64,000 nt of DNA from Sphingobacterium sp. ML3W. GTDB lineage: Bacteria; Bacteroidota; Bacteroidia; Sphingobacteriales; Sphingobacteriaceae. How positions within the stretch are numbered: position 1 is the first letter of the stretch; each line of letters opens with the position of its first letter. The notes beneath the pieces are model-generated. The model saw only the letters and a program-made list of their open reading frames with translations, ran no database searches and was not told the origin of the DNA. Made by a program: the position numbers and the translations under genes. Location of the stretch: contig NZ_CP009278.1 of the NCBI RefSeq assembly GCF_000747525.1, forward strand, positions 3,906,001-3,970,000. Reading direction: 5' to 3'. Below are positions 13,993 through 44,971 of this stretch, piece by piece.

Positions 13993-14114
13993 GTCTCTGT
14001 AATTTTTATATGATACTAACAGTTTATTGTTGTCAATTAAAGACCTATTATATAAGATTTACTTATTTTTAAAGGAAAGCACTGTTATATTTCTTGTCCT
14101 ATTCTCATCTAAAA

Positions 14115-17100: not shown

Positions 17101-17201
17101 GCAGAACCGTCTTTCTTTACAGCTAGTAAACCATGAACATTGGATGCTAGTTCAAGGGGTGTTTTTTCGCTTAATTCGTAATTTTTATCGTTAATTTCCA
17201 T
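14115..17201 (-). CDS. Large phage tail fibre / receptor-binding protein candidate
   Basis: A 1028-residue protein with a Gly/Asn/Thr-rich, beta-rich composition. The first 130 residues look like a virion-attachment region (SEKTPLELASNVHGLLAVKKDG and a CQVDMFWDALAQTWEVV block). A short helical linker (DLSGYATKQEIESIDDDLQGFNDKI) follows, then repeated beta-rich segments. The ATKQEIE-type linker is common in trimeric fibres. The gene overlaps the distal-tail gene by 11 bp and precedes the tail hub gene. The C-terminus has no match to the DGR variable repeats, so this fibre is not a target of the retroelement at 36.7-38.7 kb. Host range is its likely role (inference). Confidence 0.7.
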   Translation of the reverse strand: MEINDKNYELSEKTPLELASNVHGLLAVKKDGSAGAVGLEEIANEAGKKVGDAVKIVGNVLPTMGDVNKRYSVTVGAEGLTLTYNGVPFVLTPSCQVDMFWDALAQTWEVVNEVPLPAPDLSGYATKQEIESIDDDLQGFNDKILEQPENYFDKSTVIEGHYIDATSGELRPVTPNNSFAVSDWEDLPVGETEMYISGNTASPGTVFRNSAAPTVLIKPIDSVTGLPRPTYARNSNNGLVIIPSGANQIMVTVKFNNIDARNTLVLEKGNRDTTRIRESLIPKLEEVVVLNNQMNHLLYEGEVTRQNRFENTVNPQYFDDVSESNNRFKITVVADDTSPTKDLLNFKRVFSNTLTANGATCYQYTELAIGSQRPDVISIAMWINKAQFQSIFTGNITNYIGFRSYGANVSLLLTGQTVISSPADTTPIAEYTTAKAEFKIIEEINGWIRLRITYFDIQWKSSFTGTTVRNYFHFSGSQSFNKSLDISDFTCLYNESVQAGVFYSDPDGNFKSNVVSVPALNDGVNSLNTRVSALEQGDIASGGMNVKFNGDSLFIGSPYSSDRQLVKRITHFRPTSFTNNPNVNFISSYLASFNDIEISLTAIKSEGDDICPLSANGGHIAGNHGWFKTYILTVSAGHGKGFADIGSIYKDANNIDIVIIKIISATQILVNSRNQANDGITYDFRQPSGTLVYSSNGLNTGSIAGYTSAGGGNMWPSTMPSITKFFADRKEVGTTFNGKCDVFDINETYAVIDLASMIEKLISGRPSTGYTANIYFNEVGADVLFTVNQVYRYESNGNTVVMQNVYANKRFKYDFNSVIQVIAPATGNMYVPKSLPITGGATTYDFRKITPWSVDPTVQLYLTPEYWENPSNPPDRGVMLNDNIVIHSGYLMSKGMAINRIGSVLAHAAHLANSRKFYPKIFATQIIPDIGNSYSAVAFRSYKNPVDNPNGRTNYSYVELSGVVNIWLDYHGTLEDIVKIKPEWYGKTIEIVEKTNNVNIVGDVAVGDLNIKSKADADNYGYIVLRLK

Positions 17202-17721
17202 AACTAGTTTTTACTAAGATTCTTTGATTGCCATTAATTATTATATACCGTTTTAAACCATCTACTAAATATTTGAATAGATAAGGCTTCTTATTTGGAT
17301 CTGTTTCAAACTTGATGGTGAATTTTGCGGAGCATTCATCGTCCAGCTCTGCATTGATAAACTCCCAGCTTGAAACGCTCTTATAACGAAGTTTAAATGC
17401 TTCGCCCCAGTCAATGATTTGAAAATCTATCGAAGCATTGATCTTGATCAATGCCAAAAAATCACGCTTTTTCTTTCTATAGTCAGCCATTGACGTCCCC
17501 TTGATCAGGAACGGAACTTCAAACTCTTGTACATCTTCAATCAGTTCTGCAGTTTCGTCATAGTCCTTACCAGGTGCGTCTGGCCATATATTAAAAAAGA
17601 CCTCTTTATCTGGCGTCGGTTTTTCAAAAACAGATAGACCGCCTTCCTCTAGACAAACACCAAAGGCCGATTCGATATCTATACCATTGATTAGAACATC
17701 AGCCCCCACGTCAGTCCACAT
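17191..17721 (-). CDS. Distal tail protein candidate (Dit-like)
   Basis: A 176-residue protein placed between tape measure and fibre/hub genes, where long-tailed phages encode the distal tail protein. The sequence DETAELIEDVQEFEVPFLIKGTSM followed by YRKKKRDFLALIK and a later KFTIKFETDPN resembles a small beta-sandwich tail protein. It overlaps the tape measure stop by 11 bp and the fibre start by 11 bp, indicating translational coupling. No catalytic motif is seen. The assignment rests mostly on position. Confidence 0.6.
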   Translation of the reverse strand: MWTDVGADVLINGIDIESAFGVCLEEGGLSVFEKPTPDKEVFFNIWPDAPGKDYDETAELIEDVQEFEVPFLIKGTSMADYRKKKRDFLALIKINASIDFQIIDWGEAFKLRYKSVSSWEFINAELDDECSAKFTIKFETDPNKKPYLFKYLVDGLKRYIIINGNQRILVKTSYGN

Positions 17722-20700
17722 AATAACCTCCTTTTGTATTATCTTTAATTGCCTTTAATTCCGTTACAACGTTTTTCAATTCAACTACTGTAGAGGCTGT
17801 GTTTTCTTCTATAGCTTTTAAGTGGCGAACCTGAGCAACTAATTGGTCATAACTTTTCGCTTCAAATTCGAGCACTTTTTGTACAGCTAAAAGATTTTGT
17901 TTTGATACGTCGAGGTGAGCCCGAGAGATGCCTATAAACTCAGCTCCTGACTGTTCCGTCATTCGCTCAACACCTTCACTTTTTACAGATGACGAACCAG
18001 TACCACCAATCGTTCCATAGGTGCCTTCAATTATTTTTAGCGCATCTAGACCTTCTTTTACAATATCACCGTAACCCTTCTTAAAAGCGTCTATTTCATC
18101 TTGAGTTAAACCATCTTTCGAATCTTCACGAAATTTTTTGACCAACTCCTGAAGTGGTTCTTCTAGAACTGTCGCGGACATAGCGGACAATAAAGCATTT
18201 TGGATTACGTCATGGATATCATCTGCAAAGTCAGTATATAGACGTTTACCTTCCTTTAAACCCGACATAATTTTTGATGAAATACTATCAGCAGTTACAC
18301 CACCAGACATCTTATCAAGAATAACCGATTGTGCTTCGTCCCACGATTCAGCTAATCCATCAATTTCATTTTTTGATTTTTGCAACTCTTCAAATAACTT
18401 TGATGTAGCTTCAGTCATTTTTTTAGAAGTATAGAGCTCCTCAAGTTGCGCATACGTGTAACCCGCTAAACCAGATTTTATATCAACAACACGTGTCTTT
18501 TTACCTATACCTAAAAAGCCGCCATGCTTTTCCGTTTTTTGACCAGTTATTTGCTCTCCTTCAGACTGAATACGTTTTAATATTGTATTAAAATCAGTTT
18601 CAGCATCAGTAGTGTGCAACTTCAAGAGTTCTTGTTGCAGCCTTATTTGCTCAACAGTCAATTCATTTATACTTTCATGTTCACGAGCGCGTTCTCGCAA
18701 AAGACGATTGTATTCAAACTCTCCAGACATTACAGTGTCTTGATATTCCTTCATTTGCTTTTCAGCAATACGAGCCGATTCTTTTGCAGCGCCGAAAAAC
18801 TTTACGACACCCGATACAACTCCAGATACTGCCGATACAATTTGTCCGACAGGTCCAGCGACGCCTGCAATAGCCGAAATAGACCCGAGTATTCCACCAC
18901 CACCATCAGTTTCATTTTGCTGATAATTGTTGATGCCCTTTGTCAAGTCTATGAAGCCATCTTTTATTTGAACAGTAGCACGAAGCACATTAGACACACC
19001 TTGTAGCATAGAGCCGAGCTCTTCATTAACTCGACCTATATCCTGCGCCATCTCTCCAAATGCTCCCGATAATGTCATCACACGCTCAGGCAGTCTTTCA
19101 TCCAAAGATTTTGCAGCATCTTTTAGTGTCTCACGAATTTTTTTAAGCATTTCAGGAGAAACATTGATACCGCTTGCCAACATACTTTCAGCATCCTTGA
19201 TTACCTTTCTTGCACCAGCATCGGTCAACTTATCAACACCATCAAACAGAGCCTTATAAGAAGATAACTTTTGGATATTAGCATCATCCAATTGATTAAG
19301 TTCTTCAACATGCTTTTGGTCAAATGCCGACAATTCTTCAGCAGTAGCTATCGAAGCCTGTCCCGCACGAGCGGTTTCAAATTCAGCGATTAAGTTCTTT
19401 CGCTTTTGATCATAGGTGACCATGAGAGCAAGCAGATCAGTGAGCTTTTGTTCCTCTATCTTTTTAGCTTCATCACTTTCTTTTTTTAGAAGTTGAACAC
19501 GGTTTTCTTGACCAGCATCTCCTTTTGATGATCCAACAGCAACAATTGCATCTTCATTCGCAGATTCAAGCGATTTCATATATTCCGAAAAAGTTTCAAA
19601 ACCCTTCCGCTCATCTTTGTAACGTAAATCTGCTTTCTCTTTACCTAGCTTTGATTTATAGTCCTCATAATCGGCGTATACCTGCTTTTGTTTTTCGATT
19701 TCTTTTTCGAGCTTTCCTGTATCTTGCTTATACGTCAATTCTGACTTAGCCTTTACCTCGATGGAATTGATCTCATCCATAACCGAACTATCCAATAATT
19801 CAACTGGTTTGAAACCTTTCTTTGCTTTGTTTTTTTCATTGTATGCAACAATTTTTTCATTCTCATCCGTGATGATTTTTCGGTACTTGTCAAACTTGTC
19901 TTTTAGCGCCTGCATCTCAGCATCATCAGACTCCATGCCTTTACGAGCATATTCTTTATTGACCTCATCCATTTTATCGAGAACAGATTTTCGTCCTTTT
20001 AAAACACTGTCGTATAGATTTTCTTGTGCTGTGGTAGAAGGTGTTTTTTTTGTTTTAATTTTTTGCACCTTTTCTTCAACCTTTACATACTTGATCAGGA
20101 ACTCATCTGTTTTGTCTAAAATCTTCTTCTCATCATCTATCTCTTTGATTGCTTTTGCAGCTCTCAAATCGCTAAACCTACTTTTATCACCAACAGTTAA
20201 CCCTTTGATTGTGCCACTGGCCAATGGTCCGCCACCAATGGTCTTATCCTGATCATCACCTTGCTTCTGGTACCTAATCTTTTCATTTTGGTTTGCATTT
20301 TGAACTTTCTGTCTTTTAAAATCTAACTCCAGACTTTTAGCTGCATTTTCTTCCATCTTTTTTTCAGCAGCACGAGCACGAGCGGACTCAAGTATAGATT
20401 TGGTCAACTCTTTGTACTGTTCGGAAGCCTGACCTGTAAGCAATATCTCACTGGTCAATTTTCCTAATGTATCAGGATATGTTTTTTGCAACTCAACAAC
20501 AGCTGCTTTTCGTTGCTTAGTAGAACGGGTTACATCTTCAACTACAGTTTTTAACACCTTTAGATGTGTCAGTTCTTTAGCTGCGCCTTTAGCAGCAGCA
20601 GCCATCACGTCATTCAATGTCTCAAAATTCCGTTGCAATTGAGAAATTGTTATTTTACCTTTCATCAACTCAATGAAAAACTTAGCAATGTCCTTACCAT

Positions 20701-21217
20701 ATATCCCTATTAAGGTTATACCAACAGATATCAAAGAATTCCAACTAAATAATGACCCGACCAGATCTTTAAATGCACCCTTACCTGATTCTTTTACTTT
20801 TTCAGCTGATTTCCCTATTCCACCCAATGCTTCAGATGCCTTTTCAGCAGCTTCGGGCAATTTCCCTAAATCTTCAGGCACGACAGGAGCTTTGCTTAAT
20901 TTTTCAATTTCTGATTCAATCGTTTTTATTTCTTTCCGGTACTTATCAAAAAAGGAATCATTAATTGACAATCCCAATGTGCTGTTTTCATCAGTCCACT
21001 TTGCCAGATCGGATTGAATTTGAGCAATGCGGGCACGAAGACTATTGATACGGCCTTCTGTAGCTTTACTAAGGTTCGTGAGATTTTGATTTACTTTTTT
21101 TTCAATATTTTCAATGGTACTACCAGTTCCTTCAATTGTTTTTTGAGCCATATTCATTTCAGAATCAAGCTTACTTTGGTCAATATCCCAATCAATCCCC
21201 AGTCTTAGATTTTCCAT
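17711..21217 (-). CDS. Tape measure protein
   Basis: A 1168-residue protein, the longest in the phage. Long charged coiled-coil regions (residues 10-130, 390-700) are broken by hydrophobic stretches around 155-190 (SLFSWNSLISVGITLIGIYG) and about 780-830 (ILGSISAIAGVAGPVGQIVSAVSGVVSGVVKFFG). This is the usual architecture of tape measure proteins, which fix tail length and span the membrane during DNA ejection. The gene follows the tail assembly chaperones, with a 26-bp overlap with the second chaperone frame. By the usual 1.5 angstrom per residue rule the tail would be roughly 170 nm (inference). Confidence 0.88.
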   Translation of the reverse strand: MENLRLGIDWDIDQSKLDSEMNMAQKTIEGTGSTIENIEKKVNQNLTNLSKATEGRINSLRARIAQIQSDLAKWTDENSTLGLSINDSFFDKYRKEIKTIESEIEKLSKAPVVPEDLGKLPEAAEKASEALGGIGKSAEKVKESGKGAFKDLVGSLFSWNSLISVGITLIGIYGKDIAKFFIELMKGKITISQLQRNFETLNDVMAAAAKGAAKELTHLKVLKTVVEDVTRSTKQRKAAVVELQKTYPDTLGKLTSEILLTGQASEQYKELTKSILESARARAAEKKMEENAAKSLELDFKRQKVQNANQNEKIRYQKQGDDQDKTIGGGPLASGTIKGLTVGDKSRFSDLRAAKAIKEIDDEKKILDKTDEFLIKYVKVEEKVQKIKTKKTPSTTAQENLYDSVLKGRKSVLDKMDEVNKEYARKGMESDDAEMQALKDKFDKYRKIITDENEKIVAYNEKNKAKKGFKPVELLDSSVMDEINSIEVKAKSELTYKQDTGKLEKEIEKQKQVYADYEDYKSKLGKEKADLRYKDERKGFETFSEYMKSLESANEDAIVAVGSSKGDAGQENRVQLLKKESDEAKKIEEQKLTDLLALMVTYDQKRKNLIAEFETARAGQASIATAEELSAFDQKHVEELNQLDDANIQKLSSYKALFDGVDKLTDAGARKVIKDAESMLASGINVSPEMLKKIRETLKDAAKSLDERLPERVMTLSGAFGEMAQDIGRVNEELGSMLQGVSNVLRATVQIKDGFIDLTKGINNYQQNETDGGGGILGSISAIAGVAGPVGQIVSAVSGVVSGVVKFFGAAKESARIAEKQMKEYQDTVMSGEFEYNRLLRERAREHESINELTVEQIRLQQELLKLHTTDAETDFNTILKRIQSEGEQITGQKTEKHGGFLGIGKKTRVVDIKSGLAGYTYAQLEELYTSKKMTEATSKLFEELQKSKNEIDGLAESWDEAQSVILDKMSGGVTADSISSKIMSGLKEGKRLYTDFADDIHDVIQNALLSAMSATVLEEPLQELVKKFREDSKDGLTQDEIDAFKKGYGDIVKEGLDALKIIEGTYGTIGGTGSSSVKSEGVERMTEQSGAEFIGISRAHLDVSKQNLLAVQKVLEFEAKSYDQLVAQVRHLKAIEENTASTVVELKNVVTELKAIKDNTKGGYYVD

Positions 21218-26589: not shown

Positions 26590-27144
26590 ATGGCATTATC
26601 AAAAATCCAAGCAAAAGAGTATGCAAAGACATTATATGTGAAAGAAGATCTGCATCAGAAGATTATTGCAGAACGTGTTGGTGTGACCGAAAAAACAATT
26701 GGTAAATGGATTACGGATGGAGGATGGAAAAAGCTAAAAACTTCACTATTAACAACTAAAGACAATCAGATTGCCAACCTGTATGACCAGTTAGAAAAAA
26801 TCAACTCAGAGATTAAGGCTAGGCCTATCGTTTATGATATACCTGCTAGTATTTTGAAACCGATAAAACTCAGAGATGCTCAGGGTGATGAAACTCTCAG
26901 ATACCAAGATTACAATCCAACAGATTTCCCAATCAAATATGGCAACTATCCAAGTAATGGCGAAGCTGATATCATTTCCAAAATAACGTCATCCATTGCC
27001 AAGCTTGAGACAGAGACTGGGGTCGGCGAAACGGTCGAAGTATCAAAAAAACTAATTGCATTGATTCAACAAGATGATCTGGAATTTGCAAAGCGAGTGA
27101 CATCGTATTGCGATTTACTCATTCAAACTCTTATGATTAAATAA
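26590..27144 (+). CDS. Terminase small subunit (DUF1804 / Mu gp27-like)
   Basis: A 184-residue protein with an N-terminal helix-turn-helix (YVKEDLHQKIIAERVGVTEKTIGKWITDGGW, residues 15-47), as in DNA-recognition subunits of phage terminases. A helical C-terminal region follows, with a segment IISKITSSIAKLETETGVGETVEV that occurs in phage small terminases. The last codon overlaps the terminase large start by one base (ATGA-type coupling). It is the first gene of the plus-strand late operon. Confidence 0.78.
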   Translation: MALSKIQAKEYAKTLYVKEDLHQKIIAERVGVTEKTIGKWITDGGWKKLKTSLLTTKDNQIANLYDQLEKINSEIKARPIVYDIPASILKPIKLRDAQGDETLRYQDYNPTDFPIKYGNYPSNGEADIISKITSSIAKLETETGVGETVEVSKKLIALIQQDDLEFAKRVTSYCDLLIQTLMIK

Positions 27145-28688
27145 TGGGCATACAGAGCGACAGAAGATACCTTGAAGACTGGAACAGCTTTAGGGAGAAT
27201 GTAAATAGAGCCACACCGATTGATTTATCTGAGACTCCTTTAGCAAAAAGACAAAGGATTGCTCGGTTAGAGAAAGATCCTGAAGCGTGGTTTGCCTATT
27301 ATTTCCCTAACTTTTATACTTCAGATCCTGCACCATTTCATAAAAAATCAACTTGGTTGGTTTTGAACAATCCCGAGTTTTATCTCGTAAGATCATGGGC
27401 TAGAGAATTAGCGAAATCAGCAAGGACAATGATGGAGATTATCTATTTAGTCCTTACTAAAAAGAAAAGAAACATCCTGTTAGTTTCTGATTCTTTAGAA
27501 AATGCTAAACGTCTGTTACTTCCATATAAAGTAAACTTTGAATCAAATAATCGGATCATCAATGACTACGGACTTCAACAGACCCTAGGCAATTGGGAGG
27601 CTCACGAATTCAAAACAAAGGCAGGTGCTTCTTTTCGGGCCTTAGGCGCAGGACAATCTCCACGTGGTACACGGAATGATGCCGTAAGGCCAGATGTTAT
27701 CCTCATAGATGATATTGATACGGATGTTGACTGTAGGAATAAAGACATCATTAAGGAGAAAGTGGAATGGATAGAATCTGCATTGATTCCTACAAGAGCC
27801 ATTTCAGAAGCTTTACTAATTATTGCCTGTGGAAATATTATCGCAAAATACTGCTGTATAACCGAGATGGCTAAGAAAGCCGATAAACAGGAAATCGTTA
27901 ATATTCGGGATAAAGATGGGAATAGTACATGGCCATCTAAGAATACGGAAGAAATGATCGACCGTGTACTTAAGACTATTGGACGAACAGCAAGACAACG
28001 AGAATATTTCAATGATCCCATTGTTGAGGGCTCTTCTTTCAAAACTGTTAAATATGTGAAAGCACCGCCGATCAACACCTGTGACTTCGTCGTGATATAT
28101 GCAGATCCGTCTACATCCAATAAAGATAAACAAACGGGTAAATCAAAGAATCAGAGATCGTTTAAATCAGTGCAGGTCATCGGTTATAAATCACCCAAAT
28201 TTTACACGTATTGGATTAGACTTCAGCAGGTCGGAAATGCAAAGTTCGTTTCGTGGCTTTATGGTGCATACCAGTTTTGCAAGGATAAAAAAGTTGACAC
28301 TGTGAATTGCTGGATTGAGAACAATTCACTTCAAGACCCCCATTATTCTCAAGTTATTAAACCAAGGATTGACGCCCATGCTAAGGAACATGATATACCT
28401 GTCATTCCTGTGAGAAAAGATGAGCGCAACAAGCCCGATAAATTTGATCGGATTGATGGAACATTAACCCCGCTTGATGATGATGATAATCTGTGTTTCG
28501 ACGAAAAATTAAAAGGTCAAGAAGATATGGAAGAGATGGATGGACAGATGAAAGCCGTTTCTCCCGACTGTAAGATCATGGATGGACCAGATTGTCAAGA
28601 AGGCGGTGTATGGCTGATACTGAATAAAAAAATCTCTAGATCTAAAAGAACGTATAAATCGGGAGCCCGCCCATCAAGAAGGTATTAA
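27144..28688 (+). CDS. Terminase large subunit (Mu gp28-like)
   Basis: A 514-residue packaging motor. The ATPase half carries a P-loop-like region RSWARELAKSARTMM and a Walker B strand DVILIDDIDTD. The C-terminal nuclease half begins near FVVIYADPSTS, with the first metal-binding Asp. It cuts and pumps concatemeric or integrated phage DNA into proheads. For a transposing phage this means headful packaging from host-flanked copies (known for Mu, inferred here). It is coupled to the small subunit by overlapping start and stop. Confidence 0.9.
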   Translation: MGIQSDRRYLEDWNSFRENVNRATPIDLSETPLAKRQRIARLEKDPEAWFAYYFPNFYTSDPAPFHKKSTWLVLNNPEFYLVRSWARELAKSARTMMEIIYLVLTKKKRNILLVSDSLENAKRLLLPYKVNFESNNRIINDYGLQQTLGNWEAHEFKTKAGASFRALGAGQSPRGTRNDAVRPDVILIDDIDTDVDCRNKDIIKEKVEWIESALIPTRAISEALLIIACGNIIAKYCCITEMAKKADKQEIVNIRDKDGNSTWPSKNTEEMIDRVLKTIGRTARQREYFNDPIVEGSSFKTVKYVKAPPINTCDFVVIYADPSTSNKDKQTGKSKNQRSFKSVQVIGYKSPKFYTYWIRLQQVGNAKFVSWLYGAYQFCKDKKVDTVNCWIENNSLQDPHYSQVIKPRIDAHAKEHDIPVIPVRKDERNKPDKFDRIDGTLTPLDDDDNLCFDEKLKGQEDMEEMDGQMKAVSPDCKIMDGPDCQEGGVWLILNKKISRSKRTYKSGARPSRRY

Positions 28689-29432: not shown

Positions 29433-30662
29433 ATGGCAAAGAAAAAAGATAAAGAAATTAAGCCATCTAAGGCAGTTTTAAAAAGAGTCTTAGACTACAA
29501 ACTGAAGAGTATTTCACACACTCGAAAAGACATCAAGGACTGGACAATGGCAACCAATATGGTCAATTATGTTGAAGAGCCATCAAACTACATGCTTCAG
29601 GAACTGCTGAATGTTATTTCCAACGATGGACATTTAACCTCACAGCGACAAAACTTGAAAGATCAAATATTTTCATCACCATTTACTATTTATCATGATG
29701 ATAAGGAAGATGATGGTGAAACACGTTTACTACGCAATTCGTCTGGATTTAAAAAAATTATAGGAACCATACATGAGACTGATGATTATGCATACTCTGT
29801 TATTGAACTCAGTTTAAATAATAAAAAACTTGTTGTAGATGTTGTTCCAAGAGCAAATATTATCCCTCAGAACGGGACATTTTTGGAAGACTACACAAAT
29901 AATTCCAACAAAATAAATTACAGAGAAATTAGAGAATTTGGAACTTGGATTCTTGAATTTAATAAATTAGATATTTCTCAGGGTGATTTAGGATTATTAA
30001 ACAAATTAGTTCCACATGTACTCATGAAGCGTTTTGCGCAGTCGTGCTGGAGTGAACTGTGCGAAATATATGGTATTCCGCCCCGAGTTCTCAAAACAAA
30101 TACTGCCGATACAGGAATGATGAACCGTGGGGAAGAAATGATGCGTGACATGGGAGCAGCCGCATGGTTCATTATTGACGAAGCTGAAACTTTGGAATTT
30201 GCAACAGGAGCTACCACAAATGGTGATGTATACCGTAACCTCATCAATCTATGTACGAATGAAATATCATTGGTAATCATTGGGGCTGTAGTTGGACAGG
30301 ATACCACAAATGGCTCTAGATCAAAAGAGGAGGCAGCTCAAGAACTGCTCTGGATCAAAGCGCAGGCACGTATGTCTCATATCGAGCAGGAAATGAACGA
30401 AACTGTTATGCCTGTCCTCGCTAAGATTGGTTTGATAAAAGAAGGTGCTGTATTTAAATACAACGAAGCAGAGGACACGAATAAATTATTTGAGTATACC
30501 AAGGCTTTTCTTAACGATGCAAGATATTTCATTCCTGTAGAATTCATTAAGGAAAAATTTGGCGTTGAATTAATCGAGGTAGAAACAAAAGAAATTGATG
30601 AGACTAAAAACAAAGGGGGGCAAAAACTAAACGCTAAACTTCCAGATAATTTTTTCGACTAA
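29433..30662 (+). CDS. Portal protein (DUF935, Mu gp29-like)
   Basis: A 409-residue protein that forms the dodecameric ring through which DNA enters and leaves the head. DUF935 features include LTSQRQNLKDQIFSSPFTIY near 65-85, VLMKRFAQSCWSELCEIYGIPPRVLKT near 195-220, and GAVVGQDTTNGSRSKEEAAQEL near 285-306. The stop codon follows a T TTT TTC heptamer (30,650-30,656) and precedes a strong hairpin. A -1 shift there continues into the head-morphogenesis frame, so a fraction of ribosomes may make a portal-gpF fusion. Confidence 0.88.
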   Translation: MAKKKDKEIKPSKAVLKRVLDYKLKSISHTRKDIKDWTMATNMVNYVEEPSNYMLQELLNVISNDGHLTSQRQNLKDQIFSSPFTIYHDDKEDDGETRLLRNSSGFKKIIGTIHETDDYAYSVIELSLNNKKLVVDVVPRANIIPQNGTFLEDYTNNSNKINYREIREFGTWILEFNKLDISQGDLGLLNKLVPHVLMKRFAQSCWSELCEIYGIPPRVLKTNTADTGMMNRGEEMMRDMGAAAWFIIDEAETLEFATGATTNGDVYRNLINLCTNEISLVIIGAVVGQDTTNGSRSKEEAAQELLWIKAQARMSHIEQEMNETVMPVLAKIGLIKEGAVFKYNEAEDTNKLFEYTKAFLNDARYFIPVEFIKEKFGVELIEVETKEIDETKNKGGQKLNAKLPDNFFD

Positions 30663-30695: not shown

Positions 30696-31990
30696 TATCC
30701 CGTAGTGCAGTCGATAGTTATTACTGCTGTGATCAGCATCACGACCAATTTGATCTTGCAGCAGCAGTTGGAGGTAGTGATTTTGGTAAATACATCGAAA
30801 AGTTAGCTCGCGACATATGGGAGCAACAAGCCGAATTACAGGGTTATGACCCTGTATTGATACAAGCCTACGGTGAAAAATTGAGCGAAGCAATTAAAAA
30901 GGGGTACGACAAAGATTATGTAGAAATTGACTTCATTACGCCAGATTATAAAAAACTACATAGCCTAGAAAAGAATGCTTGGCAATTCAGTGCAGCGAAG
31001 ACTTACACGCAGTTGAAGGAAATGTCCGATGCTTTGACTAAGCCAGATGGTTCGATCAGGTCATTTGATGAGTTCCGCATTCAAACAGCGATTATCACAG
31101 GCAAACAATTACGTCACCTCAAAATCGAATATCAAACTGCATTTGGTGGCGGTCAAATGGCTGCTCAATGGCAACGAATTCAAGAGCAAAAACACATTTA
31201 CCCTTATCTGGAATTTATAGCAGTTGAAGATGAAAATACAACAGCTTTATGCCGATCGTTAAATGGCGTGATTAAGCATGTGGATGATATATTTTGGCAA
31301 ATATACTTTCCGTTAAATCATTACGGATGTAGGTCAACTACCAAACAGCATCGTACAGCTACTGAGACTCCAGATAATGAAATTGTGTATCCCGACATTC
31401 CTAAGATATTTAAGGTCAATTTGGGGGAAAGAGGGCTCGCATTTCCTGAAGACCATGCATACTTTACTGGTATGCCAGCTGAAGTAATGGAGAAAAGTAG
31501 ACAGTTTTTCCCATATAATATGCAGATGGACATATTAGATATTAGCGATGAGACATTAGGTATCATACGCCAACATTTTATGGTCGATACAAAAGCAAAC
31601 GATTATCAACGGATGCTCAGTATTGCAGCTGAAAAAGCAAGAAAAGAAAAGATATTGGTCGATATCATGCCGACCCTTGACCCTGACACGTATCCAGCGC
31701 AAAGGCTGATTGTCTTCCCTGATGCAAAAAAAGGGAAGTCATCAGATTTACGGATAGACAAAAAACTATGGGAAGAGGAGTTTTCGACCAAGTCGCACAA
31801 TATAAACAACATCAAACACGCCATCGGCGCAGGATCAAAGCAAGCAAATCATGTCATCATCACATTGAGTGAAGAAGTCGATTCAGAAATATTAAACCGA
31901 TTGGTTAACGGACGTTGGAAAGATCATCAAGATTTGAAAACAATATTATTCAGGTACCATGACAAAGAGTGGATTTACAAAAGGCCATAA
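30656..31990 (+). CDS. Phage head morphogenesis / minor head protein (Mu gpF-like), start unresolved
   Basis: Frame 30,656-31,990 encodes about 444 residues. The gpF core is recognisable (DYKKLHSLEKNAWQFSAAKT, GQMAAQWQRIQEQK, ALCRSLNGV, and PLNHYGCRS with the family Cys). The last ~150 residues form an extra domain typical of Bacteroidota homologues. The first in-frame start candidate is a TTG at 30,857, but the 67 codons before it contain no ATG, GTG or TTG, have no stop, and encode a plausible family N-terminus (YYCCDQHHDQFDLAAAVGG). It is therefore probably reached by -1 frameshifting from the portal gene, or else uses an unusual start. Confidence 0.82.
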   Translation, partial: RLSPSDHPVDLGGLSRSAVDSYYCCDQHHDQFDLAAAVGGSDFGKYIEKLARDIWEQQAELQGYDPVLIQAYGEKLSEAIKKGYDKDYVEIDFITPDYKKLHSLEKNAWQFSAAKTYTQLKEMSDALTKPDGSIRSFDEFRIQTAIITGKQLRHLKIEYQTAFGGGQMAAQWQRIQEQKHIYPYLEFIAVEDENTTALCRSLNGVIKHVDDIFWQIYFPLNHYGCRSTTKQHRTATETPDNEIVYPDIPKIFKVNLGERGLAFPEDHAYFTGMPAEVMEKSRQFFPYNMQMDILDISDETLGIIRQHFMVDTKANDYQRMLSIAAEKARKEKILVDIMPTLDPDTYPAQRLIVFPDAKKGKSSDLRIDKKLWEEEFSTKSHNINNIKHAIGAGSKQANHVIITLSEEVDSEILNRLVNGRWKDHQDLKTILFRYHDKEWIYKRP

Positions 31991-36457: not shown

Positions 36458-36760
36458 TTAAATAAACCTGTAACCTCTCGGTTTCATTGCTTCAATAGTT
36501 GCCTTAAATGGAAATTCTCCCATTTCTTTGACCTTGATACACTGTTCCTGAAGAATAACCGACCCGGTAAATATTATTCGTTCTTTGTCTTCATGGCGAA
36601 TACTGATCGTCATCACCTTTCCATTTCCTTTATCTGAATACTTTGATTTATCGATCTTGAAGTCTAGCACTTCAATGACTTTGTCAACGACTTCGTCCAT
36701 CTCTATTTTTTTCCCTGTAAATCTTTCTGTTTGAATATTTAAATCACTAAAGTTTTTCAT
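36458..36760 (-). CDS. Small protein overlapping the DGR reverse transcriptase; possible nucleic-acid-binding accessory
   Basis: A 100-residue protein whose start overlaps the RT stop by 14 bp, so the two are translationally coupled. The pattern KVIEVLDFKIDKSKYSDKGNGKVMTISIRHEDKERIIFTGS looks like a small beta-barrel (OB-like) single-strand-binding protein found in Bacteroidota phages; this is a tentative impression. It is not Avd, the usual four-helix DGR accessory. Position makes it a candidate helper for the retroelement, though it may simply be an early phage gene. Confidence 0.6.
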   Translation of the reverse strand: MKNFSDLNIQTERFTGKKIEMDEVVDKVIEVLDFKIDKSKYSDKGNGKVMTISIRHEDKERIIFTGSVILQEQCIKVKEMGEFPFKATIEAMKPRGYRFI

Positions 36761-37700
36761 TTAAAAGTTTTTTTATTAAGTTTTTGGAATTACAATGTTT
36801 TGCCCATCCGAGGTAACTAGCGATACTGGCTTTTGATTTTTTTGATTTTATTGCTCTGGCGAAAGCTTTTTTAATGATCTTTCTTAAAAGGGTATGTGTA
36901 TGATAATGTTCATACCCTCCAAAGTCAATTCCTAGTGACACTGGGAATGGTCCCCGATTAGGTTTTAAGCTAAGTTTAAGACGTGAGGACAGATAACTTG
37001 ATATTTCTTGATGGACGTAGTGTAAATATGATTTATCAGCATGTAGGATAATCATATCATCCGCATATCTGAAGTAGTAGCGAATACCCAGTACTTCTTT
37101 GATATGGTGATCCATGTATGTCAAATAAAAGTTTGACAGGTATTGGCTGAGATAATTACCGATCGGCAATCCTTCTGAACTATCGATAATACCATCAAGC
37201 AGAGAAAGCATTTCTTTATCTTTTATTTTCTTCCTTAATAAGGATTTTAAGATTTCGTTATCAACAGATGGATAAAATTTGCGTATATCAAGCTGTAAGC
37301 AATATGTTGTATCATTAACATTCTTTAATGCATCACGTAAAGCATAGCTTGCTTTGTGTACACCCCGTCCTTTTATACAACTATATGTATCAGCAGTAAA
37401 CATGCTTACAAAGACAGGCTCCAAAACGTTCATGACAGCATGATGAACAATGCGATCACGATATGGAAGGATAGCAATTTGTCTTTCCTTTCGTTCCTGG
37501 ATAACTCGGTAACGATAAGGTGATGTCTTGTAAGTATTACCAGCAAGCTCTTTATAGAGATCAGCAATGTTTTGATCATAGTTCTTATCGAACTCAATCA
37601 CACCTGTCTGTTTTGCCTTACCACGTCTCGCAATTCTATCAGCAAGTAAAATATTGTCGATACTGAAGACTTGTTCGTATATGTTGTTTATTCTTTTCAT
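36747..37700 (-). CDS. Reverse transcriptase of a diversity-generating retroelement
   Basis: A 317-residue RT with the full palm motif set: LQLDIRKFYPSVD (first metal Asp139), GLPIGNYLSQ at 177-186, and YADD at 212-215. The [IVL]GxxxSQ motif marks DGR reverse transcriptases; group II intron RTs have QGxxxSP. The early segment CIKGRGVHKASYAL also matches DGR RTs. It has no maturase or endonuclease domain. It copies the template repeat RNA and introduces errors at adenines. It lies 120 nt downstream of the template repeat and is preceded by two target genes in the same direction. Confidence 0.96.
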   Translation of the reverse strand: MKRINNIYEQVFSIDNILLADRIARRGKAKQTGVIEFDKNYDQNIADLYKELAGNTYKTSPYRYRVIQERKERQIAILPYRDRIVHHAVMNVLEPVFVSMFTADTYSCIKGRGVHKASYALRDALKNVNDTTYCLQLDIRKFYPSVDNEILKSLLRKKIKDKEMLSLLDGIIDSSEGLPIGNYLSQYLSNFYLTYMDHHIKEVLGIRYYFRYADDMIILHADKSYLHYVHQEISSYLSSRLKLSLKPNRGPFPVSLGIDFGGYEHYHTHTLLRKIIKKAFARAIKSKKSKASIASYLGWAKHCNSKNLIKKLLNEKL

Positions 37701-37778
37701 TTTTTCGCCTTTGCTTTAGAGGTCGTCTTCATCCGTTCAAAGATTACCAACGCCCTGAAAGATTCAGTGTATTTTTCT

Positions 37779-37793
37779 ACCTTACGGTAAGGT
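37779..37793 (-). ncRNA. Hairpin in the spacer between template repeat and RT
   Basis: A perfect 7-bp stem (ACCTTAC with GTAAGGT) around one base, within the 120-nt spacer separating the template repeat from the RT start. In characterised DGRs this spacer RNA is structured and required for cDNA priming. The role here is inferred. Confidence 0.4.
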
Positions 37794-37820
37794 CTGTACT
37801 GTTATTAATTTTATTAGCAT

Positions 37821-37893
37821 GTGGGCACTGACATTCGCGTTGTCGTTGTCGTAGTTGTAGTCGTTGTACGAGAACCCAACAGCCGAACCAGTA
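37821..37893 (-). repeat. DGR template repeat (TR, 73 bp)
   Basis: A 73-bp non-coding repeat between the second target gene and the RT, on the same strand. Read in the target frame it would encode GSAVGFSYNDYNYDNDNANV, with many AAC and AAT codons, the adenine-rich codons favoured by DGR templates. It matches the variable repeat at 38,008-38,080 over 73 bp with 10 differences and that at 38,480-38,548 over 69 bp with 14. Every difference is at a template A. Confidence 0.97.
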
Positions 37894-37914
37894 CAGTACA
37901 CAACCTAAGTTTAT

Positions 37915-38391
37915 TTACTTGCTCTTATTAAGAGCTAATGATCGGTTATAGATATCAATGAACTGTTTACCCATATGTATAGCCTTTTCGGACGTATCCA
38001 CGGATCGGCGGGCACCGACAAACGCGTAGTCGTAGTCGTAGCAGTAGACGATGTACGAGAACCCAACAGCCGAACCAGTATTTCTTTCAAAATATGGATA
38101 GTACCAGCTTTGATCCATTGTTAGTTCTTTACCTTCTCTTAAAGCAAGGGCAATTTCTTCAATTTCCTTTTCCGCTTTTTGAGCATCAGTATCGCGTTCA
38201 GTTTCCCAGTTGAAACGCTCCATTGTTTTACCGTTATAGTCAAGTGCCGCTTGCAGACTATCGATACGCTCTATGATATTTTTGACGAATACCTTTTCGC
38301 CAAATAGATTTTTCAATAGGTTCTTACCTTTTGCGTTTGCTTCATCAAAAGCTTTAACTGCATTTTCTTTTAAAATTGTTAGATTTTCCAT
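37915..38391 (-). CDS. DGR target protein 1 (158 aa)
   Basis: A 158-residue protein, helical in its first 100 residues (VKAFDEANAKGKNLLKNLF, DAQKAEKEIEEIALAL), then WYYPYFERNTGSAVGFSY, where the variable repeat begins. The variable segment encodes GSAVGFSYIVYCYDYDYAFVGAR and is followed by about 30 conserved-looking residues (KAIHMGKQFIDIYNRSLAL). Similar WYPYF-GFSY-GSR-YAGKQFxDIY proteins occur in Bacteroidota phages and mobile elements; their function is unknown. It is paralogous to the 114-aa gene upstream (LxxNGxTxExFNxxT). No signal peptide or membrane segment is seen. Confidence 0.9.
   Translation of the reverse strand: MENLTILKENAVKAFDEANAKGKNLLKNLFGEKVFVKNIIERIDSLQAALDYNGKTMERFNWETERDTDAQKAEKEIEEIALALREGKELTMDQSWYYPYFERNTGSAVGFSYIVYCYDYDYAFVGARRSVDTSEKAIHMGKQFIDIYNRSLALNKSK
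38008..38080 (-). repeat. DGR variable repeat VR1 (73 bp)
   Basis: Located inside target gene 1, in frame. It differs from the template at 10 positions, all template adenines (AAC to ATC, TGC or TAC; GAC to GTC; AAT to TTT; AGT to GGT; CAC to CGC). The invariant 27 bases at the 5' end and the shared GTCGGTGCCCGC at the 3' end bracket the mutated block. The shared 3' block may be the IMH-type initiation site. Confidence 0.97.
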
Positions 38392-38398
38392 GTTTCAA

Positions 38399-38743
38399 TT
38401 AACCGTTAATGTATTCACTGTATTCTTTTGTAAATGTTTTGCCTGCATAGATAGCTCTCTCATGATCTATCATAAGAAGGCGGGCACCGACAAACGCGAA
38501 GACGATGTCGTAGAAGTAGGCGCGGAACGAGAACCCAACAGCCGAACCGTTAGGATTCCAGAAATAAGGCCAATAACCTGAAGTAACATTCTTACCACCA
38601 TTCATCGCCAATACAATAGCTTTTACTTTTTCGTAGCCATAAGTATCTGGTGCCATCTTAACCGTGCGATTATTGAATTGCTCCAATGTTTCTCCGTTAA
38701 ATTCTAGTACTTTTTCGAATGTGTCAATTTGCTTGTAATCCAT
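38399..38743 (-). CDS. DGR target protein 2 (114 aa)
   Basis: A 114-residue paralogue of target 1. It has the same pattern LEFNGETLEQFNNRT, YWPYFWNPNGSAVGFSF, then FVGAR, ERAIYAGKTFTKEY. The variable segment encodes GSAVGFSFRAYFYDIVFAFVGAR, more hydrophobic than in target 1, so the two copies now display different residues at the same sites. It lies 7 bp upstream of target 1 and 13 bp downstream of the GemA-like gene, so it is transcribed with the phage early operon. Confidence 0.9.
   Translation of the reverse strand: MDYKQIDTFEKVLEFNGETLEQFNNRTVKMAPDTYGYEKVKAIVLAMNGGKNVTSGYWPYFWNPNGSAVGFSFRAYFYDIVFAFVGARLLMIDHERAIYAGKTFTKEYSEYING
38480..38548 (-). repeat. DGR variable repeat VR2 (69 bp)
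   Basis: Located inside target gene 2, in frame. It differs from the template at 14 positions, all at template adenines. It shares the 3' block GCGTTTGTCGGTGCCCGC with VR1, which differs from the template at four adenines, so this block is fixed in the recipients. Confidence 0.97.
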
Positions 38744-38756
38744 TTTTAAACCTCCT

Positions 38757-39149
38757 TTAAACTTTATTTAAATAATCTTTGTAAATCTTGTTTTCCATCA
38801 CCCACAAAACTTTGTTAAGGGTGTTAACGTCTAATTGGTTCAACTCAACTCCGTAGTTTTCCTGTGACCAATTATTGAGCCTTCCCACGATCTCAACCGT
38901 GTTATTACCCCAGTTCATTTTTCCTGCTAGAGCAATAAGCTTCTTTCGTTGTTTATCCCCAGGAGCAACAGCATCGGGACGTTTAGTCTGTTGCCATTTT
39001 CGTACATGTATAAATAGTTCATGATACTCACCATCGTTAAGCGAACGAAGGCTATCTGTACGGCCAGAAGTAAATTCGGACACAACTTCTTTATAATCTA
39101 CACCAGCTGCCTTGCAGATGGCAAAAAATTCAGGATAGTTTCTAGCCAT
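38757..39149 (-). CDS. GemA-like phage regulator (Mu gp16, DUF1018)
   Basis: A 130-residue protein with the DUF1018 pattern: GDKQRKKLIALAGKMNWGNNTVEIVGRLNNWSQENYGVELNQLDVNTLNKVLWVMENK. In Mu, GemA (gp16) modulates host DNA supercoiling and early gene expression. It belongs to the early operon, upstream of the DGR targets. Residues 70-125 hold the conserved region. Confidence 0.75.
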   Translation of the reverse strand: MARNYPEFFAICKAAGVDYKEVVSEFTSGRTDSLRSLNDGEYHELFIHVRKWQQTKRPDAVAPGDKQRKKLIALAGKMNWGNNTVEIVGRLNNWSQENYGVELNQLDVNTLNKVLWVMENKIYKDYLNKV

Positions 39150-41334: not shown

Positions 41335-42006
41335 TTAAGCGTTATTAGATTTTAAATCCAGACCATGGTACAGCTGTGCTTTCATCTCTATTAAATTAAA
41401 CTCTCCGCCTTTCACACGACCCGATACTAAAGCTTTCAAACCTTCAACTAAAAAAATTGCCTTGGCCCAGATCTTTATATTTTTTGCAATCGCGGTATAG
41501 GGTTCGTTTTTAACCATATGTGCTACGTAGATAAATAGTACATTTGGGAACTCTTTACAGAGCTTTTCAGCCATACCTCTTCTCAATTCTGCTAGCATTG
41601 CCGTTACATTGTCCAATACAACTATTTTAGGAGCAGTATGTCTTCTCAGTATGACCTTTAGCGATTTAATAGTCAGATATTCACTGAAGAATAGATTTTT
41701 CTGTGTCGCTTCGATACCAGCTCTTTTCATACTATCTTGAAAGTGTTGCGATAGACCTTCCTCGGCGCTCACGTATAGGACTTTTTTAATATCACTTAGC
41801 GCATTCGCTAGCATAAGAGAGCAAAGCGTCTTACCGTGCTTCTCTTTTCCATATACGAGCCATATTCCAGATGCATCAGGAGTACCTAGCACATCAGCTA
41901 AATTCCCAGTCAGACCAATCAGTTTTTCAGACTTCTTTTCGTAGGCATTTCGAGGGTTCAGTAGCCTGATTTTTGCTTCAGGCATTTCATCTTTATGCTC
42001 TTCCAT
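41335..42006 (-). CDS. P-loop ATPase (RecA-like) of the phage early operon
   Basis: A 223-residue ATPase with Walker A GKEKHGKT at 53-60, a Walker B-like strand APKIVVLDNV near 124-133, and a following His strand FIYVAHMVKNEP that resembles the sensor of RecA/RadA-type ATPases. It lies directly after the MuB-like gene (1 bp apart). Two consecutive ATPases are not the standard Mu arrangement, so this protein may assist in target choice or replication in this phage group. Confidence 0.75.
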   Translation of the reverse strand: MEEHKDEMPEAKIRLLNPRNAYEKKSEKLIGLTGNLADVLGTPDASGIWLVYGKEKHGKTLCSLMLANALSDIKKVLYVSAEEGLSQHFQDSMKRAGIEATQKNLFFSEYLTIKSLKVILRRHTAPKIVVLDNVTAMLAELRRGMAEKLCKEFPNVLFIYVAHMVKNEPYTAIAKNIKIWAKAIFLVEGLKALVSGRVKGGEFNLIEMKAQLYHGLDLKSNNA

Positions 42007-42007
42007 A

Positions 42008-42904
42008 TTAGCTGTGCAGTATTAAAAGAGACTCAGCACGTCTCAGCCCACCAATCTTCTTATTGTCTTCATCCTTCGTAAGACATTTAAGTATGATCTC
42101 TTTTAGCGCAATATTTGGAGCCGCATTTACTTTGAGGACATCTGTAATCAGTTGTTTATAAAAATTCTGCTTTTCTTGCAGATCAGTTGGCACCACCGTA
42201 GTATAGCGCTCTGAAAATCTGGAAAACACTTCGCTGAATCCGACTTTCTTTGAATTGATACCTTTTTTGATTACCTCACGGAGTCCTTCAGCTCCCATCA
42301 GGTACCAGCCACAAGCATTTTCAGTAGCATTCCAATATTCCTTCAGGTCAAGTAAGGCTGGGCGGTCCAGATCACCTGCTTCATCAACGATGATCATAGG
42401 TTGTGGTAATGTTCTCAAGTAATATTTGACATCTTCTTTAACATCATTAATTTTCCCTGTCGCATCGACACCGACAGTTTTTGCAAGTGCACGAGTGAAT
42501 AAATGTTTAGTTTTACACTGGCTAGCATCAATGTAAAAGCAGTTCTTGCGAGTTCTAGCAAGATATTTAGCTGTAAATGTTTTACCGATACCACAGTCAT
42601 CTACAAACATCTTCGATTTACTATGCGCTTGACAGAAATCAATATCCTCCTCGATGATGCAGAAGACTTCAGTCTTAGCAATATTCCATACACGCTGATT
42701 CACCGTGATGTTCAATTGTCGTCCGATGGTCAACCATTGCGCATCACGCAGAATACCCTCAGTCTCCCCGTTACGTATCCTAGAATACACCGACCCATTG
42801 ATACCCCACTGCTTTGCAAATGCAGCATCAGTGCCGCTATAATTAGGTCTCACAGCAAGTAAAGCTGCACTGACATCTGTTTTAAAATTTTTTGGTAGAT
42901 TCAT
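42008..42904 (-). CDS. MuB-like AAA ATPase (transposition target-DNA activator)
   Basis: A 298-residue protein. An N-terminal helix-turn-helix region (residues 25-50, AFAKQWGINGSVYSRIRNGETEG) is followed by an AAA core with Walker A DDCGIGKT at 102-109 and Walker B IIVDEAGDLD at 171-180, as in MuB. MuB binds target DNA in an ATP-dependent filament and stimulates the transposase. It is immediately downstream of the transposase, as in Mu. Confidence 0.88.
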   Translation of the reverse strand: MNLPKNFKTDVSAALLAVRPNYSGTDAAFAKQWGINGSVYSRIRNGETEGILRDAQWLTIGRQLNITVNQRVWNIAKTEVFCIIEEDIDFCQAHSKSKMFVDDCGIGKTFTAKYLARTRKNCFYIDASQCKTKHLFTRALAKTVGVDATGKINDVKEDVKYYLRTLPQPMIIVDEAGDLDRPALLDLKEYWNATENACGWYLMGAEGLREVIKKGINSKKVGFSEVFSRFSERYTTVVPTDLQEKQNFYKQLITDVLKVNAAPNIALKEIILKCLTKDEDNKKIGGLRRAESLLILHS

Positions 42905-42925: not shown

Positions 42926-44971
42926 CTAAAATCTGTTTTTCAATGACTGTCTTACAGATGTGTAAGTACCAAAGTCATCATCAAAATCATCAACATCCGC
43001 AATCTGTGGCATCACCACTGGTTCACGATCTTCATATTTGTACTGCTTTTGTTGAGAAAATATTTGATGTTTAAGAGGCTTGGCATCTTCCCTCAAGATC
43101 ACGACACCATCAAGATCATCACGTTGTCTTTTCGCAAACCCATCTACTGTATTTGTATAGGCAGCCAATAAGCTTTCAGCAAGATCATCCGCAGCAGTTC
43201 TTTCAATCCTTGCACGCACAGGACGTGGCTTTTTAACCAGCTCACAGATACATTGTCCATCCACATAAGCAAATGCTTTTAAGACCTCTCCTTGATCATC
43301 ATCCAACCAATACACATCAATATCTTCACCCTCGATCTGCTTCATTACTTGTATCAAGCGCTCACCTTTAGCTACAGCACCTTGATCACCGATCAAGCAC
43401 AATCCATTATTCAGGCGAATATTGCCAACTTTACATGAGCTCGGAGTACGAATCCCGATATGCGGTAAAATGGCCTCGTAGTTGATTGCTTTGAGTGATG
43501 GATGTTGACGCTCTAAGAAAAAATCCCATTTAGAAACACCTGATTCAGTTGGATGCTCGGCATTATTCCATTTGTCAATATCGAGCAAACAGTCATTGAC
43601 AATTTGCTTGTAGGGGATGCGTGGTACTTTTTCAATATCAACACCGGGTTGATTAGCCTCGCTCAAAGCTTTAGGTCTGGCCAACCATCCTTCGCGACCT
43701 TTTTCCATTCGATAGCGCAATTCCTCATTCACGCGCTCGATATACTTTCCTCTCGCATTATTGGCTTCCATCTTCACATAATCGAACATGACGCCTTCTT
43801 TCAATATCGTATCCTTATAAGAACTGTTCAAAGACATCTCACACTCCAACTCAGCAGGTAAACAAAGACCCCAATAAGTATAGTTGCGCACCATCTGTCT
43901 GTAGAACTCCAATATGATACCCTCTTTAGTGTCACCATGCACAGCACAGGTGATAGCGCGACTACCAACATCAACAGCTAAGTAAAACCAGACCCGTTTC
44001 CCATCAAGATTTTTGAAAGGGGGTTGTCTATCATCGATAGAAATCATCGAACCAGCAAAACGGGGCATCTCAAAAGAGTAGTAGGGCTTGAATTTGCCCA
44101 TGTTTATCTGGCGGTCGTCAGAGCGTTTCTGGTGAGTGGCTAACTTGTTTTCCCAACGGTTTAGATAGTTGGTTACAGTGGAAACACTCAGTGATTTATA
44201 TCCTTTAGGAGAATACAGCTCACCTGTCTTATTATTGACAACTTCGATATAGCCACTTATAAACCCCTCATATTGTTCATGTATTTCTTTAGCGGTCGGC
44301 TTACGTATTTTATCAGCAAACATGTCATTCAATAACTTCATTGTGCTATCATTGACCTTACGGGAGTTGATATTGCGATGCTTTTTAGAAATCAACGACT
44401 CATAATTGAAAGAATCATTAATCCGAGTTTCAAAGTCATTTAAAGTCGCTGTAAAACGGCTGGAAGTTGGAAGGTCATGCTCTACTTTATATTTTTTACG
44501 CAACACATCATTAAAGCTTAATACATCAGCTTTAATAGTATTGTACAGGCCTACTTTAGATCGACCTTTGCTCTTCCACTCATTCAAACGGTCATCACGT
44601 AGGCCGAGAGCAGCTTTCAACACTGAAGCATTGATGATATAGCGCTCTTGGTGGTCGAGTTTGAGATAAGTACCATCAGCAAATTTGTAAATAGAAAAAT
44701 AGCGTGTAGCATCAGGATCGACCGAGTAGTATTGCTCTAAAATATGATCGACCTTACGTGGGTCATGCAGCGCATCTCTAATATCACCCGCAAGCGAATC
44801 AAAATCAACCAATAGCTGTCTTCCATTGCCACCAGACATCACACGCTTAATACCGTAAGGCTTATCCTTATAGCGCTGTATGTTCGAATAAAGCGTGCTC
44901 TCACTCTTAAAAAAGTGAGGAACAAGCTCTTCCTTCGATACAGCGACAATATTTCCTAAGATGATTGGCAT
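42926..44971 (-). CDS. Mu-type DDE transposase (phage integrase/replicative transposase)
   Basis: A 681-residue transposase with helix-turn-helix regions in the N-terminal 200 residues, and an RNase-H-like core: SMISIDDRQPPF (Asp313), LPAELECEMSLN (acidic residue near 376-378, Glu rather than the usual Asp), and ARGKYIERVNEELRY (Glu412), the E of the DDE triad. A C-terminal segment (QIFSQQKQYKYE) may bind the ATPase partner, as in MuA. It joins phage ends to target DNA for integration and lytic replication. Confidence 0.9.
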   Translation of the reverse strand: MPIILGNIVAVSKEELVPHFFKSESTLYSNIQRYKDKPYGIKRVMSGGNGRQLLVDFDSLAGDIRDALHDPRKVDHILEQYYSVDPDATRYFSIYKFADGTYLKLDHQERYIINASVLKAALGLRDDRLNEWKSKGRSKVGLYNTIKADVLSFNDVLRKKYKVEHDLPTSSRFTATLNDFETRINDSFNYESLISKKHRNINSRKVNDSTMKLLNDMFADKIRKPTAKEIHEQYEGFISGYIEVVNNKTGELYSPKGYKSLSVSTVTNYLNRWENKLATHQKRSDDRQINMGKFKPYYSFEMPRFAGSMISIDDRQPPFKNLDGKRVWFYLAVDVGSRAITCAVHGDTKEGIILEFYRQMVRNYTYWGLCLPAELECEMSLNSSYKDTILKEGVMFDYVKMEANNARGKYIERVNEELRYRMEKGREGWLARPKALSEANQPGVDIEKVPRIPYKQIVNDCLLDIDKWNNAEHPTESGVSKWDFFLERQHPSLKAINYEAILPHIGIRTPSSCKVGNIRLNNGLCLIGDQGAVAKGERLIQVMKQIEGEDIDVYWLDDDQGEVLKAFAYVDGQCICELVKKPRPVRARIERTAADDLAESLLAAYTNTVDGFAKRQRDDLDGVVILREDAKPLKHQIFSQQKQYKYEDREPVVMPQIADVDDFDDDFGTYTSVRQSLKNRF

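Follow-up and report, generated by a model that had tools for sequence, protein, structure and literature searches.

The 64,000-nucleotide stretch analyzed here (the window: Sphingobacterium sp. ML3W, contig NZ_CP009278.1, positions 3,906,001 to 3,970,000) carries a diversity-generating retroelement (DGR) within a Mu-like prophage. Read along the coding (minus) strand, the cassette consists of target gene b (VRb), target gene a (VRa), a non-coding template repeat (TR), the gene of a reverse transcriptase (RT), and a gene for a 100-amino acid (aa) protein, the first 14 nt of which overlap the end of the RT gene (Table 1). A first-pass annotation had proposed a complete DGR here, with a DGR-type RT, a TR and two variable repeats (VRs) on one strand. 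All of these elements were found where it had placed them, and independent repeat finding recovered the same three repeat copies. The annotation did not include the overlapping 100-aa gene, two further cassettes in the same genome, or the unusual nature of the targets. We consider it likely that this DGR is dedicated to small, non-virion proteins of the phage early module, and that the 100-aa product, which is predicted to resemble an oligonucleotide/oligosaccharide-binding (OB) fold, is a cofactor of the RT in place of the accessory protein Avd.

The RT matches RVT_1 in Pfam (E=2.4e-18) and the RT family PHROG 1423 (E=1.2e-116), has the motifs LPIGNYLSQ (SQ motif) and YADD, as the annotation had read them, and groups with RTs that have A-mutated TR/VR pairs of their own. 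Membership among the DGRs is indicated by this RT, by TR/VR differences at TR adenines, and by the difference between the initiation of mutagenic homing site of the VRs (IMH) and its TR counterpart (IMH*). Rfam gave no match across the cassette, and PADLOC gave generic RT matches only.

Table 1. Positions in the window of the DGR cassette and of prophage genes around it
Feature	Coordinates	Strand	Basis or remark
Target gene b (VRb), small variable protein, 114 aa	38399..38743	-	Open reading frame (ORF); weak PHROG 11581 match; homologues in both other cassettes
VR2, inside VRb; 38480-38491 (3' end) = IMH	38480..38552	-	Repeat finding, fixed-window comparison, pattern search
Target gene a (VRa), small variable protein, 158 aa	37915..38391	-	ORF; PHROG 11581, E=4.9e-8; AlphaFold2 (AF2) model
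VR1, inside VRa; 38008-38019 = IMH	38008..38080	-	Repeat finding, fixed-window comparison, pattern search
TR, non-coding, between VRa and RT; 37821-37832 = IMH* (GTCAGTGCCCAC)	37821..37893	-	Repeat finding
DGR reverse transcriptase, 317 aa	36747..37700	-	ORF, Pfam, PHROG, RT tree
OB-fold-like accessory gene (predicted), 100 aa, PHROG 19665	36458..36760	-	ORF, profile, AF2 model, fold search
GemA-like early gene, directly upstream of targets	38757..39149	-	Sub-threshold Pfam match, E=0.058
ATPase, early module	41335..42006	-	Context
MuB-type transposition ATPase	42008..42904	-	PHROG 296, E=5.7e-36
MuA-type transposase	42926..44971	-	PHROG 310, E=1.6e-23
Terminase	27144..28688	+	Context
Mu portal	29433..30662	+	E=8.7e-60
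MuF	30857..31990	+	E=3.5e-11
Tail genes	11560..21217	-	No VR here
Tape measure	17711..21217	-	Context
Tail-fibre-like gene (putative)	14115..17201	-	By position

Template and variable repeats here and in related cassettes

TR and VRs were compared over fixed 71-nt windows, with a scoring that gives no preference to A and with hypergeometric P values. VR1 differs from the TR at 10 sites, all of them A in the TR (P=9e-8), and VR2 at 14 A sites and 2 non-A sites at its 5' edge (P=1.3e-9). The two non-A sites fall outside the limits of VR2 in the first-pass annotation, so that its count of 10 and 14 differences, all 24 at template adenines, is exact within those limits. Two A to G differences per VR lie near the 3' end (TR, GTCAGTGCCCAC; VR, GTCGGTGCCCGC), and across all six VRs and three TRs of the genome GTCGGTGCYCGC versus GTCAGTGCYCAC is a fixed difference. 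Since every one of the six VRs in the three cassettes carries these two changes, the best reading is that they represent the IMH/IMH* difference and not independent mutagenesis, and slightly fewer than 24 differences would then report hypermutation. The A-only pattern inside the repeat holds for all six VRs (P from 9e-8 to 2e-10). Codons of the TR are of the NNY, GNC, and TNC types, so that no stop codon can arise, and the TR randomizes 11 core codons, or about 3 billion proteins. At one AAT codon of the TR, both VRs of cassette 1 (37915-38743) read TTT and both VRs of cassette 3 (L010, 8646-9475) read GGT, an agreement that could be due to chance or to exchange between VRs.

The two further cassettes in the 5.33-Mb genome (cassettes 2 and 3; L009 and L010) are complete, and their RTs are 86% and 73% identical to the window RT. 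A pattern in which every TR adenine was replaced by N matched the genome exactly nine times (three TRs and six VRs), with no match in a backward control. No tail gene is thus targeted, as this search, which allowed any letter at TR adenines, found no VR outside the cassettes in the prophage tail genes or elsewhere in the genome. In the 5' part of the TR, cassettes 1 and 3 have specific non-A blocks (GGCTGTTGGG and TCTTCCTCG, respectively), each of which recurs in both VRs of the same cassette, as repeated TR-to-VR copying predicts. Cassettes 1 and 3 sit in Mu-like prophages, whereas cassette 2 (2796000-2815000) adjoins DnaB and other replication-type genes as well as a PcfJ-like gene, with no Mu gene among the 19 kb read. 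This difference in context points to a probable transfer of the cassette from one phage type to another.

Searches for the RT yielded 70 loci from bacterial genomes and 80 from IMG/VR. When the scan for A-type pairs was repeated with the other letters, A-type pairs were found in 73 of 78 loci, against 0 for C, 3 for T, and 18 for G. The G-type pairs are expected as the mirror of A to G changes, and this control supports A specificity beyond scan bias. In pooled A-tolerant scans, A was changed at 2563 of 3736 sites and non-A at 65 of 10136, counts that are biased because such scans penalize non-A changes. The weight for A specificity is therefore placed on the fixed-window tests, the letter-swap and pattern controls, and near-identical pairs of cassettes. 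Two alignments (A1 and A2) were too diverse for pattern scans, and single proteins were used for that reason.

The loci fall into two types. Type a, to which the window belongs, has a TR of about 70-90 nt and usually two, sometimes three, small targets, in which about 20-38 residues (median about 25) separate the VR from the C-terminus. Type b has a TR of about 112-120 nt and one target, mostly of 430-530 aa, whose VR is at the extreme C-terminus. After removal of identical RTs, type a comprises 109 loci, which are Bacteroidota phage cassettes; the hosts are Sphingobacteriaceae, Flavobacteriaceae, Chitinophagaceae, Weeksellaceae, Paludibacteraceae, and Dysgonomonadaceae. The a/b labels cluster strongly on the RT tree (a value as low was reached in 0 of 500 shuffles); the bootstrap of this tree is rough, and the clustering of type a stops short of demonstrating a single clade. 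The RTs of crAss-like phages were considered as members of the same type and dropped; in cr52_1, the one that was examined, a tail target adjoins the RT.

Three near-identical IMG/VR cassettes (L175, L176, and L177) differ pairwise at 12, 13, and 25 sites, of which 11, 13, and 24 lie inside the VRs, although these make up 7% of the sequence, and 9, 13, and 22 are at TR adenines (P=6e-27 for the most distant pair). Substitutions at non-A template positions among relatives, which the first-pass annotation had named as evidence against adenine-specific mutagenesis, are thus not the pattern in these cassettes. That such near-identical viral cassettes, which come from different metagenomes, differ almost only at VR adenine sites shows that the cassette type is active in nature as a family, and not thereby in this copy. 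Near-identical pairs of type b behave the same way. The other IMG/VR record of the window is 100% identical over 10.5 kb; it is probably the same strain and for that reason uninformative on the activity of the window copy. It is conceivable that the VRs were diversified formerly and that the copy is dead in its present host, and the sole other record, with no ongoing change visible, would fit such a relic. However, all five cassette elements are intact here, as in the other two cassettes, relatives are active, and the TR has a composition without possible stop codons, which together make a relic quite improbable. Judged from the sequences, the TR is shown to have been copied with A-specific errors into two tandem targets, and the scaffold, the tandem layout, and the RT-coupled OB-fold-like gene are shown to be conserved.

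The small targets and the early module

With few exceptions, phage DGRs have been interpreted as devices at the tail that switch host range. The targets of type a are small (about 115-175 aa) and in tandem, with an internal VR in a conserved scaffold. In VRb the VR lies about 25 codons before the stop, and a conserved VGAR motif and a C-terminal helix follow the VR in the target. The small targets match PHROG 11581, and neither this family nor PHROG 19665 has a named function in the libraries searched. The two targets of the window are without match in Pfam, NCBIfam, and PADLOC, and sequence searches of solved structures with target and accessory profiles gave nothing significant. Named phages gave no match to the window VRa; BT-TP2, LoVEphage, and Versailles were reached via relatives. 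In the AF2 model of VRa, a helical N-terminal part and body is combined with a low-confidence VR loop (predicted local distance difference test, pLDDT, 55-70). A fold search with this model found no match in PDB and only unnamed gut-phage proteins in BFVD. In L119, a reading frame at the contig start (1-392) joins an OB-like segment to a small-target segment, and either a chimera from assembly or a genuine fusion could account for this.

The cassette lies at the end of the early transposition/replication module, and the tail genes, which are without VR, are more than 15 kb away. The element had earlier been placed in a transposable Bacteroidota phage, and the MuA- and MuB-type genes, the Mu portal and MuF, and the closest RTs outside the genome, which are in Sphingobacterium, all agree with that placement. 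Similar surroundings are found in 20 sampled type-a loci, with transposase, MuB-type and other ATPases, primase/helicase, and regulators upstream, and methyltransferase, head genes such as portal and MuF, and protease downstream. By hydropathy, nearly all of 208 distinct small targets are without membrane- or signal-like segments. By context, the small targets would be non-tail proteins.

One template can also feed a tail-type target and a small target together. Among IMG/VR records, 21 have a small-target-like gene with no RT within 10 kb, and 10 of these carry an RT farther off. Each of these 10 has a TR next to its RT that matches the small target 11-41 kb away, with 11-18 A changes and 0-1 non-A changes, and in 8 of the 10 the local target is of the long type. 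Small targets in trans were also found in BT-TP2 (13 A and 0 non-A changes), Versailles (14/0), LoVEphage (19/0), BI-TP1 (14/0), and PV4-TP1 (17/0), and those of the dual-target phages are distant members of the PHROG 11581 family. In BT-TP2 the target is an unannotated early gene; it runs from 44859 to about 330 of L097 (PQ571279), is cut by the arbitrary record start, and is absent from the deposited annotation. In Versailles the early-region small target (L274, 3890-4471) bears the annotation 'tail protein', which it seems to owe to the resemblance between its VR and the VR of tail proteins (PHROG 5302). In some contigs the small target shares only 75-79 nt, at the 3' end, of a 113-nt TR, and this would account for the shortness of the type-a TR.

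The main alternative is that the small targets are virion or adsorption proteins such as tail-tip adaptors, and that the DGR acts to switch host range, as it does in BPP-1 and Hankyphage. Phage DGRs do mostly target tail proteins (PMC8144416), one TR feeds both kinds of protein in the dual-target records, and the VR segments of small targets and tail targets can be aligned with each other (29 columns). However, the small targets lie beside early/replication genes in the 20 sampled loci, have no tail-assembly domain and no similarity to tail targets outside the VR, and are far from the VR-free tail genes in the window, while the LoVEphage-type copy sits among methyltransferases and RtcB. We therefore regard an adsorption role as unlikely.

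Other features of the prophage region include a CI-like repressor. At the C-terminus of the MuF-like head protein (30857-31990), Pfam gives a sub-threshold match (E=3.4e-5) to a CdiA C-terminal domain, reminiscent of polymorphic-toxin MuF fusions. Identical genes for 391-aa transposase-like proteins, IS4-like by eye, lie at 1088-2263 (-) and 4177-5352 (+) and flank 2601-3440 just outside the phage; these opposite genes are possibly an inverted pair of insertion sequences.

The OB-fold-like partner of the reverse transcriptase

The AF2 model of the 100-aa protein (pLDDT 91) has the order β1β2β3-α-β4β5 and OB topology, and its top VIA-align matches are OB domains (RuvBL2) and single-stranded DNA-binding proteins, with Z scores from 6.5 down to 4. 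The protein is thus predicted to be OB-fold-like, with a five-stranded β-β-β-α-β-β barrel. A sequence search from one member gave 11 relatives, all 11 directly behind a DGR RT, and when 295 genomes of the class were searched with a profile, the 7 strong matches all lay directly behind a DGR RT, two of them fused to it. Such a gene is near the RT (within about 1.2 kb) in 181 of 200 RT loci, where it may be separate behind the RT, fused to the RT C-terminus, or just upstream near the Avd slot of BPP-1. No cassette protein has an Avd-like (PF05635) Pfam match, the only match in the genome being about 700 kb away. In the literature on DGRs together with OB folds we found nothing on such a partner, within a coverage that is incomplete and does not extend to accessory lists. 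In LoVEphage, BI-TP1, and PV4-TP1 (L278-L289) the RT is broken over several frames, as reported for Quimbyvirus, and its last piece overlaps the OB-like domain, which may mean that the 'frameshift' is in part due to a separate OB gene.

Since overlapping phage genes are common and the 100-aa protein has no solved relative by sequence, it could be supposed that an unrelated early gene merely adjoins the RT. RT and OB-like domain form a single protein in 8 loci and in Hankyphage, the gene stays near the RT though its slots vary, and it also lies behind the RT in the archaeal viruses ANMV-1 and vir525. These results make a chance neighbor very unlikely.

Several points weigh against a DGR for non-virion targets with an OB-fold-like cofactor. 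The OB fold comes from a predicted model with middling Z scores, and nucleic-acid binding is putative; 19 of the 200 RT loci have no OB gene in the stretch examined, some of these stretches being truncated. Presence in the virion is compatible with an early-module position and the lack of a signal peptide, and the sharing of one TR by a small protein and a tail protein could mean a shared class of surface ligand. The VR part of the target model is of low confidence, as would be any binding geometry taken from it.

In the mechanism that we favor, the RT and the OB-fold-like protein would together reverse-transcribe the TR transcript, the latter binding the TR RNA or the cDNA and so standing in for Avd. 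The mutagenized cDNA would then replace the VR 5' of the IMH, inside a gene in which about 25 conserved codons follow, so that the VGAR motif and the C-terminal helix would be retained. As the targets come from the early DNA-replication part and not from tail tips, they would probably meet something inside the cell. Less firmly, we infer that they are binders: soluble cytoplasmic proteins, made with the transposition/replication functions, that would recognize variable components of the host or of rival phages early in infection or in the lysogen. Their role would be in anti-defence or superinfection conflict, rather than in binding a host receptor at adsorption.

Known systems and the meaning of a probably dedicated cassette

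A DGR in a Mu-like prophage is of a known kind. Hankyphage p00 (PMC6199706; PMC12135933) is likewise a Mu-like transposable Bacteroidota prophage with a DGR, and its RT ends in an OB-fold-like domain; the DGR is active in culture (PMC12135933). However, Hankyphage has a single 116-nt VR in a giant tail protein and no small target, and its OB domain is fused, whereas that of the window is separate. BPP-1 has in common with the window the RT, TR, VR, A-specific mutagenesis, and the IMH/IMH* logic. Its target is a tail fibre with a C-terminal VR, followed by a hairpin, and its Avd is helical, whereas the window cassette has an internal VR, no Avd, and an early-module position, and no hairpin was found after the VR. 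A perfect stem of at least 7 within 55 nt 3' of the VR was present in 0 of 71 small-target VRs, a search that does not cover shorter or imperfect stems. In ANMV-1 an OB-fold-like homologue is directly behind the RT, as in the window, and the target, AdtA, is of 446 aa and lies beside tail-fibre genes (PMC4372165). The targets known as tentaclins (313-649 aa, with C-lectin and Ig domains, and thought to be virion-attached) are a family separate from the window targets (PMC10743442).

The DGR of Quimbyvirus is described as having a second target that is non-structural and lies close to methyltransferases and a tRNA ligase (Benler et al., 2021; PMC8008677). The neighborhood of the LoVEphage target is the one so described, and the second Quimbyvirus target thus very probably belongs to the small-target family (PHROG 11581). 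The equivalents in LoVEphage, BI-TP1, and PV4-TP1 were found here to be small trans targets of the same family as those of the window. Phages of this type have a tail target, and their second target lies far from the RT, whereas the whole of the window cassette sits within the early module, where it has two small targets in tandem and lacks a tail target. With Quimbyvirus as a partial precedent, what appears to be new here is the dedicated small tandem targets of the early module, their internal VRs, and the OB-fold partner.

More broadly, and with somewhat less than even confidence, we propose that DGRs are widespread in Bacteroidota phages as a means of building hypervariable, non-virion, intracellular binders (the tandem PHROG 11581 proteins) against host defences or rival phages, and that their RT works with an OB-fold cofactor (PHROG 19665), fused, overlapping, or adjacent, that archaeal viruses also have and that takes the place of Avd. 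An entire group of DGRs appears to be devoted to small early proteins alone, and in other phages one template supplies a tail protein and a small protein together. The OB-fold-like partner offers a new testable component for DGR systems without a recognizable Avd, and is part of the Hankyphage RT. With three cassettes in a single strain and relatives in named phages, both points are open to direct testing. Should the products work intracellularly, a phage would possess the closest counterpart to a randomized antibody repertoire directed at host defences, in which each template allows about 3 billion core variants.

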